27,546 nucleotides of DNA from a virus. The stretch spans positions 1 to 27,546 of IMG/VR virus record IMGVR_UViG_3300025070_000176; one strand, 5' to 3'. Position 1 is the first letter of the stretch. Each line of letters begins with the position of its first letter. Of the stretch, positions 22,502 to 27,546 are shown piece by piece. Made by a program: the position numbers and the translations under genes. The notes below the pieces were generated by a model. The model ran no database searches, was not told where the DNA came from, and saw only the letters and a program-made list of their open reading frames with translations.

Positions 22502-23086
22502 TTATGCTTCTTTCAAGAGCTGGTCTACACCGGTCAAGGTCACGCTGTAAGTGGCAATCTCATCGACACCACCTGAGAGCTGCACCGATTCAATCAGTAC
22601 CTGCCCATAATAGTCAATGTCGGTTCCGTCCTTGTCGATAGAGAACTTGACGATTGCATAGTACTTGTTGCGAGCCATATCCATGATGGAGACACCTGCG
22701 TCATCCGAGGTTTGGATCAGACCGTCGCATGTGATCGTCCACTCTTGATTCGATTCCTGGAGTGTGCCACCTTCGCCATCTCGAGCGACGTTCTCGATTG
22801 AGTTTGTCAAGTCGAGGTTGCTCGAGGTTGCTGCTCCAACGAGATCCAAGCGGTCGAGCTGGTCAGTGAAGGCGTCGGTGCCGTGATCGATCTCACCATA
22901 CCCGATGAAAATGTTGTTTTCACCGCTAGTCGGGTCAGAGTCGGCAACGATAGCGCGAGTGTAGTCCACTGTCGCCGCTTGTGCTGCCGAGCTTGTAGAA
23001 GCGTAAGGCGCCAGTGTCTTAATTTTTGTCTGAGAGTCTACGCTATCGATGTAGATAGCTAGACAGTTTGCGTTTACTACTGCCAT
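22502..23086 (-). CDS. major tail tube protein paralog 2
   Basis: The 194-aa product has the tail tube pattern of LDLTNSIENV, EWTITCDGLIQ, IMDMARNKYYAIVKFSID and, near the end, IESVQLSGGVDEIATYSVTLTG. It aligns along its length with the upstream gene's product (LDLSNTIDEV, SWNLSADGLIQ, LMDIARKSEYVLVRFVLD, IENVSITGGFDDTATYSVTVRG). One copy may form the tube while the other decorates or terminates it. It is followed by an intrinsic terminator. Confidence 0.8.
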   Translation of the reverse strand: MAVVNANCLAIYIDSVDSQTKIKTLAPYASTSSAAQAATVDYTRAIVADSDPTSGENNIFIGYGEIDHGTDAFTDQLDRLDLVGAATSSNLDLTNSIENVARDGEGGTLQESNQEWTITCDGLIQTSDDAGVSIMDMARNKYYAIVKFSIDKDGTDIDYYGQVLIESVQLSGGVDEIATYSVTLTGVDQLLKEA

Positions 23087-23096
23087 GATTCAATTC

Positions 23097-23732
23097 TTAG
23101 TGCTGGTACTTATAGAGTTTTCCGTAGCCACGAACTGTTACGGAGTAGGTTGCTGTGTCGTCAAATCCACCGGTGATGCTTACGTTCTCAATGATGCCTT
23201 GACCGATGTAGTTGACCTGGTTTTCATCAGTTCCTGACGTGTCCTTGTCGGTGACGTCCAACACGAAGCGAACCAAGACATATTCGCTTTTACGAGCGAT
23301 GTCCATCAAGCGAGTTGCACCCATGCGGTCAGAGGATACGACGTCCTGAATCAATCCGTCAGCGGAAAGGTTCCAGGACTGAGCTCCTCCGATGATGTAG
23401 GTTTCAGAGTTGCATTGGGTAGACTTAGCTACGACCTCGTCGATCGTGTTGCTTAGATCCAGAGTGGTGGACGTTGCTGCGGCCAGGAGGTCAAGCTGGG
23501 CTACACCGTTGGCCCAGCTACCGGCTGAATTGCTACCGATAGCTGGTACGTCTGAATCTTCCAATACATCGTCTCCGTCTACGAGAATGCCGTAATCGCC
23601 TGAACTGGTAGCTGCTAGAAAATCTGTTTTTGCAGTTGCCAAAATAGCGTTGTCCTCGACTCGGTACGCTGATGTTTGCCCCGAGTCGGCGAAGCCATAA
23701 AGGCCAAGATAGTTTGCGTTAAGTAGTGCCAT
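23097..23732 (-). CDS. major tail tube protein paralog 1
   Basis: This 211-aa protein matches the siphovirus tail tube family by its motif series (LDLSNTIDEV, SWNLSADGLI, then GIIENVSITGGFDDTATYSVTV) and its position between the gp10-like gene and the chaperone. It and its downstream paralog share a start MA(L/V)(L/V)NANxL. Only 10 bp separate the two genes. It polymerises around the tape measure to form the tail tube. Which copy is the main tube protein cannot be told from sequence. Confidence 0.8.
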   Translation of the reverse strand: MALLNANYLGLYGFADSGQTSAYRVEDNAILATAKTDFLAATSSGDYGILVDGDDVLEDSDVPAIGSNSAGSWANGVAQLDLLAAATSTTLDLSNTIDEVVAKSTQCNSETYIIGGAQSWNLSADGLIQDVVSSDRMGATRLMDIARKSEYVLVRFVLDVTDKDTSGTDENQVNYIGQGIIENVSITGGFDDTATYSVTVRGYGKLYKYQH

Positions 23733-25792: not shown

Positions 25793-26875
25793 TTAGGCTG
25801 CGTCGTACCCGATGATGCCGTTGTAGTTCAGACCAGAGAAGTCCTTGTACATGTTGGCGATGATCCGGACCACGCCGTGATCAGCATCGGTGTAAGGGTC
25901 AATGATCAAGTTGACACCACCCCAGGTGCACTGCACCAACTGAGTAACGTCAGCCATGAACAACTCACCTGCATCAATCTGAGAAGACACCACTGCGTCG
26001 TAACCCAAGATCTGCTTGCGATCAGCAGGAGAGCTTGCGAAGAGCAAACCTGAACCTGCGTCCAAGCTGTTCTGACGCTCCTGGCGGTAAGCCAAAGCAG
26101 AGGCGGCTACACGCACGTTAGAGAGGTCCACATCGTTTCCGAGCAAGAACTCCTCGAGGTGCAGAGAGTTATAGCTAGTGTTGCTGTACTCCTCCATGCC
26201 TGTACCTACTGCTGCTACGTTGTGAGAGTCAGCAGCACCGTGCAATTTAGCAGCAACGTCTGCGCTAAACTTGGCGTCGATAGCCTTGCGGATCTCCTGC
26301 GCAACGAAAGCACCCATGTCCTGGCTGCTCTGAGCCAAGAGTTGCTCCGTCACTTGCACGTGAGCTGAGTAGCGCTTAGGCGCCAAGGTGCGAGCCGCGA
26401 AGGCTGGGTTGTTGATGCCCTGTGCCGTAGCTTCAGCGGGGGTTCCAACTGTTGGTGTCGTGGTCTGAACCTGGAACACTACGTCACCAGTTGCGCTAGT
26501 GATGTTGCGGACACCCATCTTGGTGGCCAAATCGCCAGCAGCGAAGGCACCGACCAATCCTGAATCAACCTTGCCGATCTGGCCTCCGAAAGCATCAGAT
26601 TCGTTATTGCCAGAGCCAGAATCCACTGTACCCAAGGCGGCACGAGATTCACCGCTAGTCAAGAAGCTGGGGACGTTGATGCCGCCAGACACATTCACTT
26701 TTGAAGAGGTAAACTCAGAGCGAGCTTCCTGGTTCATTTCTGCTTCGAGGCCAGTCAAGCGACCTTGTGCCGCTTCACGGATAGCCTTTCCGAAGTCGTA
26801 ACGCTTTTGCAGCTTTTCAGCTACATCGCCCAGACCCTGGATGTAGGCCGGAGCGTTCTTTTCTTTGTTCTCCAT
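25793..26875 (-). other. candidate internal start for separate major capsid protein
   Basis: The ATG at 26875-26873 (MENKEKN) lies in frame. It is preceded by an A/T-rich run (AATAATAACAATTCCAATAA) in the middle of very GC-rich GAG/GAA/GAC codons. This resembles a Bacteroidota translation leader. Use of this start would yield a 360-aa capsid protein, a typical size, besides the fusion. Proteolytic release of the same part is an alternative. Confidence 0.45.
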
Positions 26876-27546
26876 GTTATTGGAATTGTTATTATTAGAT
26901 CGAGCCTCCGGCTCAGGGTTTTCATCTAGAGCATAGGGATGCGGCAAGATGCTGGTGTCGACCAAAACGTCAACACGCTCTTCCTGCTCATCTTCTTCTT
27001 CCTCCTCCTCATTTTCTTCCATCTTCTTCTCTTCCTCCTCTTCGTCCTCGTCCTTAACGCCATCGTAGTCGGAGTCGACGCCTGGGCGACGGTCCTCCTT
27101 CTCCTCTTCCATACCCTCCTCTTCTTCCTCTTCCTCTTTCTTTTCGGCGCGTTGAACTGGTTCGATTGCCTTGTCACCGCATCCGCAATCTTCCTTCTCT
27201 TCAACTTCTTCTTCTGACCGAATCACCTCCTCTTCCAGCTCTGCAACCGCCTCGTTAGCGAAAGCCGCTTCCATTGAGCGGAGACCAACTTCGGTGGTGG
27301 GGTAAGCCCCCTGGGTTGTGGGTGAGACGTCGAACAAGAGATCGACTGCTTCGATTGTGCGGAGATTCATTCCATCATCGCGACGCTCCCAGCTATCGTC
27401 TTTGACTGTGAAGCCAAAGCTGCTGGTACCTACGTTGCCCATGCGGATGTTCTCGGCAAGATCCTTTGCGTAGCTCTGGTTGCCCAATTCGAAGCGGTAC
27501 TTGAGTCCGCGCTCGTCAACCTCGAGCTCCAATCCATGACCTACGC
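25793..27546 (-). CDS. prohead protease fused to HK97-type major capsid protein (5' end cut by window)
   Basis: One open frame runs from the window edge to 25793. The first part is the prohead serine protease (S78/U35-like): LELEVDERGLKYRFEL, MGNVGTSSFGF with the Ser of the SSFGF block, and DLLFDVSPTTQGAYPTT. The catalytic His region is at or beyond the edge. An extremely acidic linker follows (runs of Glu, DSDYDG, EEEEDEQEE), then RSNNNNSNN, then MENKEKNAPAYIQGLG. The capsid part has an HK97 fold pattern (helix-rich delta-like start, FLTSGESRAALGTVDSG, ARTLAPKRYSAHVQVTEQLL, DAKFSADVAAKLHGA). The linker could act as scaffold and be removed after assembly. It starts off-window; no in-window start is credible. 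Confidence 0.85.
   Translation of the reverse strand, partial: VGHGLELEVDERGLKYRFELGNQSYAKDLAENIRMGNVGTSSFGFTVKDDSWERRDDGMNLRTIEAVDLLFDVSPTTQGAYPTTEVGLRSMEAAFANEAVAELEEEVIRSEEEVEEKEDCGCGDKAIEPVQRAEKKEEEEEEEGMEEEKEDRRPGVDSDYDGVKDEDEEEEEKKMEENEEEEEEDEQEERVDVLVDTSILPHPYALDENPEPEARSNNNNSNNMENKEKNAPAYIQGLGDVAEKLQKRYDFGKAIREAAQGRLTGLEAEMNQEARSEFTSSKVNVSGGINVPSFLTSGESRAALGTVDSGSGNNESDAFGGQIGKVDSGLVGAFAAGDLATKMGVRNITSATGDVVFQVQTTTPTVGTPAEATAQGINNPAFAARTLAPKRYSAHVQVTEQLLAQSSQDMGAFVAQEIRKAIDAKFSADVAAKLHGAADSHNVAAVGTGMEEYSNTSYNSLHLEEFLLGNDVDLSNVRVAASALAYRQERQNSLDAGSGLLFASSPADRKQILGYDAVVSSQIDAGELFMADVTQLVQCTWGGVNLIIDPYTDADHGVVRIIANMYKDFSGLNYNGIIGYDAA

Follow-up and report, generated by a model that had tools for sequence, protein, structure and literature searches.

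A gene at the end of a marine phage genome fragment probably produces two proteins from one reading frame by internal initiation, namely a minority fusion of prohead protease, acidic linker and major capsid protein, and free capsid protein in larger amounts. The fragment, IMG/VR record IMGVR_UViG_3300025070_000176, was analysed as a single stretch of 27,546 nucleotides (hereafter the window). Support for this reading comes from the fusion itself, a conserved ATG at the start of the capsid part, the nucleotide pattern of the leader before it and RNA-level selection on a hairpin further upstream. The host may be a member of the Bacteroidota, judging by the start pattern of the window's genes and by one distant relative with split genes in a Flavobacteriales MAG.

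A protease and a capsid protein in one frame

The fusion ORF is a single uninterrupted open frame of 583 amino acids on the minus strand (27544-25793). Its 5' end is cut because the contig, a 27.5-kb virus fragment, stops within the protease; the missing first 74 protease residues are supplied by relatives, in which the complete protein starts MANNVEKRY. The C-terminal part of an S78 prohead protease (27544-27257) matches Peptidase_S78 (PF04586) at fusion residues 4-92 with an E-value of 1.1e-23, and even this truncated copy scores 84.6 bits against a cut-off of 21, with 138.3 bits for the full-length relative L002. A TSSFGF stretch lies at 27427-27410 and presumably holds the catalytic serine, as placed by family knowledge. 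The conserved NHD stretch (FNHD) falls off the contig but is present in the protease of relatives, and it is these two conserved stretches that mark the enzyme as putatively catalytic. The HK97-fold major capsid protein (26875-25796, 360 amino acids) matches Phage_capsid (PF05065) at residues 347-578 (E 1.5e-15; 57.8 bits, cut-off 24.2), and Foldseek places its domain with the capsid proteins of R4C (8gta_A, E 9.9e-13) and HK97 (2ft1_F, E 1.4e-9). An AlphaFold model built with 49 relatives shows a protease domain, a low-confidence linker and a capsid domain, with pLDDT below 50 in segments between residues 184 and 314. Directly 3' of the capsid stop, in the gap before the connector gene, is a strong intrinsic terminator (25775-25750, minus strand) that the first-pass annotation had missed; its sequence is identical in close relatives and is replaced by different hairpins in distant ones.

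Scans of IMG/VR gathered about 70 distinct relatives. Every relative with a close capsid match either has the two domains in a single frame or is truncated at a contig end, and none is split. With so many distinct relatives preserving the in-frame fusion, a frame error can be ruled out. The first-pass annotation was right to place protease and capsid in one frame, but not to treat this as a rarity. Protease-capsid fusions are already known, and many phages have them: protease-(scaffold-)capsid fusions occur in Microbacterium cluster EE, Arthrobacter AM/AU/AN and Rhodococcus RRH1 actinophages (PMC7302621, PMC5513430). They are also common among named phages, including Murka, Mano, RcCronus, Persinger, S-CBS3, CRP-823 and Dinoroseobacter R4C, although the protease part is assigned from position and length in R4C, where Pfam sees only the capsid, and in RcCronus. 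These small-siphovirus and other phage fusions resemble the window in combining a prohead protease with an HK97-fold capsid protein.

Two other features of the window were seen in passing. The adjacent genes at 23097-23732 and 22502-23086 have similar lengths and first codons, and the latter gene has a match to a tail tube family; the pair may thus be a duplicated tail tube gene. The palindrome GTCTAYTCARTAGAC occurs in seven copies (at 80, 608, 1139, 1515, 1778, 3076 and 7979), four of them within the full 17-mer TGTCTAYTCARTAGACA; all are in the arm of plus-strand genes, some intergenic and others within the starts of genes, and they may be the operator of a phage regulator.

The internal ATG and its leader

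The probable start of the free capsid protein is an internal ATG at 26875-26873 (minus strand). It follows the codons for RSNNNNSNN (26902-26876). The A-rich, unstructured leader (26901-26876), which codes for SNNNNSNN, is free of G except at its first base. The ATG is retained in all 72 listed sequences and is near-invariant in alignments. We counted the composition of the 24 nucleotides preceding it over 62 distinct upstream sequences and found 46% A and 6.9% G, whereas G makes up 27% of the capsid part and 34% of the linker. A is found at -3 in 71%, at -6 in 50%, at -11 in 63% and at -12 in 69% of these sequences; G is almost absent from -1 to -16, and absent or nearly so at -1, -2, -4, -5, -7, -8, -10, -11 and -13. 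The first-pass annotation had proposed conservation of the A-rich block as a check, and at the nucleotide level the block is indeed conserved. The encoded residues vary among clades (NNNNSNN, SQNSKSED, QNSENRD, HNKSQNKNST). Because the G depletion and the A positions stay while the amino acids change, selection acts on the nucleotides of the leader and not on its residues.

Profiling in Flavobacterium johnsoniae has shown that initiation is stimulated by A at -3, -6 and -12/13 and by low structure between -20 and +20 (PMC6847099). The leader before 26875 has this Kozak-like character of Bacteroidota starts, with A at the same positions, little structure and no Shine-Dalgarno sequence. The F. 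johnsoniae signal was described at ordinary gene starts, whereas that of the window lies inside a coding frame and has a conserved hairpin upstream. A start model trained on the 35 other genes of the window gave the internal ATG a score of 3.54 (median of true starts, 3.31) and ranked it first of the 12 in-frame ATGs, the other 11 all scoring below -1.6. Among 25 relatives, the site scored higher than any other internal ATG in 20, in which it ranked first or second overall, usually beside the protease's own start; it was not the best internal ATG in the remaining five. The conserved Met of GLRSME, which follows the protease domain, was rejected as a further internal start with scores of -0.4 to -7.0.

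Judged by sequence, the likely capsid start proposed in the first-pass annotation holds up, as an internal start codon with a host-matched initiation signal in the manner of the nested lambda C/Nu3 genes. In phage lambda, an in-frame start inside the protease gene C yields the downstream product, Nu3, in excess. The short product of lambda is a scaffold, whereas that of the window would be the capsid protein itself. PMC5513430 mentions the scaffold-protease fusion of lambda.

A hairpin upstream of the leader

A short RNA hairpin, GAGCC-GGA-GGCUC, is encoded at 26914-26902 (minus strand) within the codons for EPEAR (GAG CCG GAG GCT C). Its stem of 5-6 bp, missed by the first-pass annotation, ends 25-26 nt before the internal ATG. 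GAGCC-N3-GGCTC occurs only once in the window (0.04 expected), and 53 of the 57 matches to GAGCC-N3-6-GGCTC in 417 kb of relatives lie at the hairpin site before the capsid start. Codon usage is constrained where the stem forms: the Ala codon of the 3' arm is GCT in 58 of 58 sequences, ranking first of 207 columns for excess codon identity, and the Glu codon of the 5' arm is GAG in 49 of 50 (rank 3 of 207). The third codon position in the loop varies, and the third base of the Arg codon, just outside the stem, is unconstrained. Loops range from 3 to 6 nt through codon insertions that enlarge the loop alone, as in GAGCC-AACCGA-GGCTC.

Several relatives keep a stem in altered form. Relative L031 has a compensatory GAGCT/AGCTC stem; L039, L042 and L043 have the G-U variant GAGTC/GGCTC; the L073 clade has CGAG-GAAA-CTCG; L265 forms GAGC-GTTCA-GCTC despite changed protein residues; L277 carries an insertion that folds on its own within the stem-loop; and L036 has an unrelated stem, GGTGC-CGTTC-GCACC. 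These stems were extracted one by one, because MAFFT put the codon gap in the stem and not in the loop, which precluded automatic covariation pair counts. Two clades are without a GAGCC-type hairpin: L059-L065, with no strong predicted hairpin, and the L044 clade, with a different predicted stem. L059-L065 also are without the acidic linker, but the correlation between hairpin and linker is weak because each clade represents one event.

Hairpin strength alone was rejected as proof, since it is not significant in single sequences. The fold of the whole region has a z-score of only -1.2, synonymous recoding of single sequences produces comparable stems in 4-27% of trials, and other segments of the capsid gene often contain them. 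The hairpin is short and comparable stems are common; therefore, the case rests on conservation rather than stability. Its GGAGG was considered as a Shine-Dalgarno sequence and discarded, being too far upstream and lost in relatives with CGA or TGA loops, and a terminator was discarded because no T run follows the stem. Rfam has no match in 26700-27546. On this comparative evidence, the hairpin is well supported as an RNA element under selection. It may act by keeping the leader open, by pausing or by protecting a processed 5' end.

Part of the conservation at the junction could be explained by an old inherited start codon or by a protein-level cleavage motif. If only the full-length fusion were made, every shell subunit would bring a protease with it, the protease would cut near the border of linker and capsid, and the block of EPEAR, Asn-rich stretch and Met would be a cleavage site or a flexible hinge. 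The modelled shell chain of R4C starts at residue 362 of 629, the N-terminal parts being absent from the modelled mature shell, and most members share EPEAR at the protein level. However, the residues at the site vary freely (GAVRTEQTA, ELEAQNSENRD, ERSAQNKSKSN) while the hairpin, the G depletion and the ATG stay, codon choice is constrained exactly at the stem positions, and a start-like nucleotide context would have no reason at a cleavage site, all of which makes cleavage of a sole product improbable. We give very little credence to the idea that ATG and leader are a relic of a separate capsid gene that predates the fusion and are now little used. Separate genes with A-rich leaders do exist in more distant relatives and in Cellulophaga phage phi39:1, but relatives with as little as ca. 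50% protein identity still show the ATG, the hairpin and the composition of the leader, whereas a relic would be expected to drift. Moreover, the capsid proteins of the separate relatives open with a delta-like coiled coil; because this is missing after the internal start here, the site cannot simply be equated with the start of the old gene.

The same ATG would also serve if the message were processed, the hairpin giving rise to a cleavage or an internal 5' end and hence to an mRNA for the capsid alone, with a stem-loop protecting its 5' end. A stem followed by 11-32 nt of single-stranded leader resembles the known class of 5'-stabilising stem-loops, and the terminator closes the unit after the capsid, yet a search for sigma-70-like promoters, a type of scan that does not cover Bacteroidota promoters, found none; we consider RNA processing unlikely. 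Finally, the acidic stretch itself might abort ribosomes by intrinsic ribosome destabilisation, which would lower the amount of fusion and add free protease with an acidic tail. PMC9718836 describes acidic runs as destabilising bacterial ribosomes, and linkers across the family contain 29-56% Asp+Glu over 69-142 residues. Against this, the acidic runs in the window are no longer than eight residues, and a folded domain precedes the linker, so that the exit tunnel is already filled; abortion is thus highly doubtful as an explanation.

In the separate-gene relatives (L119-L134) and in phage phi39:1, too, a stem stands ca. 25-30 nt upstream of the capsid ATG, and an A-rich leader comes after it. 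Such stems, noted in L122, L119, L106 and L011, have the form CCGCAA-N4-TTGCGG or, in phi39:1, a bulged TGAG..CTCA. Because similarly scoring stems, some of them terminators, also lie close to the start of 7 of the 35 remaining genes of the window, these cases are only suggestive.

The acidic linker, other fusions and capsid stoichiometry

The linker between the two domains (27256-26876, minus strand; fusion residues 97-223) is predicted to be disordered. It was annotated in the first pass as more than 100 residues, mostly Glu; the length is correct at 127 residues, but Glu makes up 35% and Asp+Glu together 44%, with a longest acidic run of eight. The DSDYDG stretch within it (27076-27059), in the context DSDYDGVKDED, looks like a Ca site of the thrombospondin type-3 or EF-hand-like kind. 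Only 14 of 72 relatives have the D.D.DG..D pattern, so the suggested Ca-binding motif is not a conserved one, and we dropped it as functional.

In the model, no delta-type coiled-coil scaffold directly precedes the capsid domain: residues 186-314 are of low confidence and mostly unstructured, and the part from the internal start to the N-arm of the capsid contains no long helix. Separate-gene relatives have ca. 80 delta-like coiled-coil residues after the capsid start, and a coiled-coil-like stretch is found there also in the fused L107 group, but in none of the window family. The acidic linker of the window family lies upstream of the internal start and would therefore be carried by fusion copies only. 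No scaffold gene is recognisable between the terminase and tail genes of relative L004, in which two small ORFs (one phrog_2859, the other unmatched) lie between portal and protease and the connectors follow directly. The idea that the linker serves as a scaffold removed by the protease is a guess; it is possible and fits by elimination, given that there is neither a delta-like coiled coil after the start nor a recognisable scaffold gene nearby. The phrog_2859 protein of L004 (L004:3455-3772, 105 amino acids) precedes the protease, and a similar domain is seemingly fused to the protease N-terminus in the more distant L107, L140 and S-CBS3.

HK97 likewise pairs an S78 protease (gp4) with an HK97-fold capsid protein (gp5), but it encodes them in separate genes and places a delta scaffold on every capsid subunit, whereas the internal-start product of the window would have no delta. 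The nearest solved relative is R4C, whose mature capsid chain comprises residues 362-629 of the 629-residue ORF and whose ATG at codon 189, at the protease/scaffold junction, is preceded by GGAGG at Shine-Dalgarno spacing. The junction ATG is likewise preceded by AAGGAG in CRP-823 and by weaker Shine-Dalgarno-like sequences in RcCronus, Mano and Persinger, matches for which no chance rate was computed; no such match is found at the junction ATG of S-CBS3 or Murka. In R4C, RcCronus, CRP-823 and Mano, the candidate ATG precedes a stretch of ca. 100 residues in the scaffold or delta position, whereas the window has an acidic stretch of ca. 100 residues before the ATG and none after it, and a Bacteroidota-type start with a hairpin in place of a Shine-Dalgarno sequence. 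These comparisons suggest that host-matched internal starts are a common companion of protease-capsid fusions. The open-access literature searched, which misses most subscription journals, contains no description of an internal start in such a fusion. The in-frame junction ATGs at L171:2677 (R4C), L169:2518 (CRP-823) and L167:2707 (RcCronus) are possibly unannotated capsid starts.

From these features we infer how internal initiation would operate. One mRNA would yield two products that share a frame: ribosomes starting at the protease would make the protease-acidic linker-capsid fusion, and those starting at 26875 would make an excess of the free capsid protein. The latter site would function as a Bacteroidota-type start, with an A-rich, G-poor leader and no Shine-Dalgarno sequence. 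The hairpin, located where the expected 30S footprint has its upstream edge, would keep the leader single-stranded or otherwise favour initiation while ribosomes also read through the same mRNA. A small number of fusion subunits would then co-assemble with free capsid protein, bringing protease and acidic linker into the procapsid, where the protease would cut off itself and the linker, as in HK97-type maturation. More tentatively, and with doubt outweighing confidence, the in-frame hairpin might be a dedicated cis-element for non-Shine-Dalgarno internal initiation in Bacteroidota that fixes the capsid:protease ratio, with scaffold function confined to the few linker-bearing full-length subunits and the bulk of the capsid protein assembling without a scaffold domain of its own.

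Protease-capsid fusions raise an open question of stoichiometry, as a shell needs hundreds of subunits and few proteases and both are encoded in one frame. The window family offers a sequence-level answer that reporters can test directly, and the Shine-Dalgarno-like junction ATGs in several fusions of proteobacterial phages suggest a general, host-matched solution. They also suggest that annotations of fusion genes record just one of the products. If internal initiation at 26875 is true, this family would provide a natural assay for what Bacteroidota ribosomes need when initiating inside a translated message.
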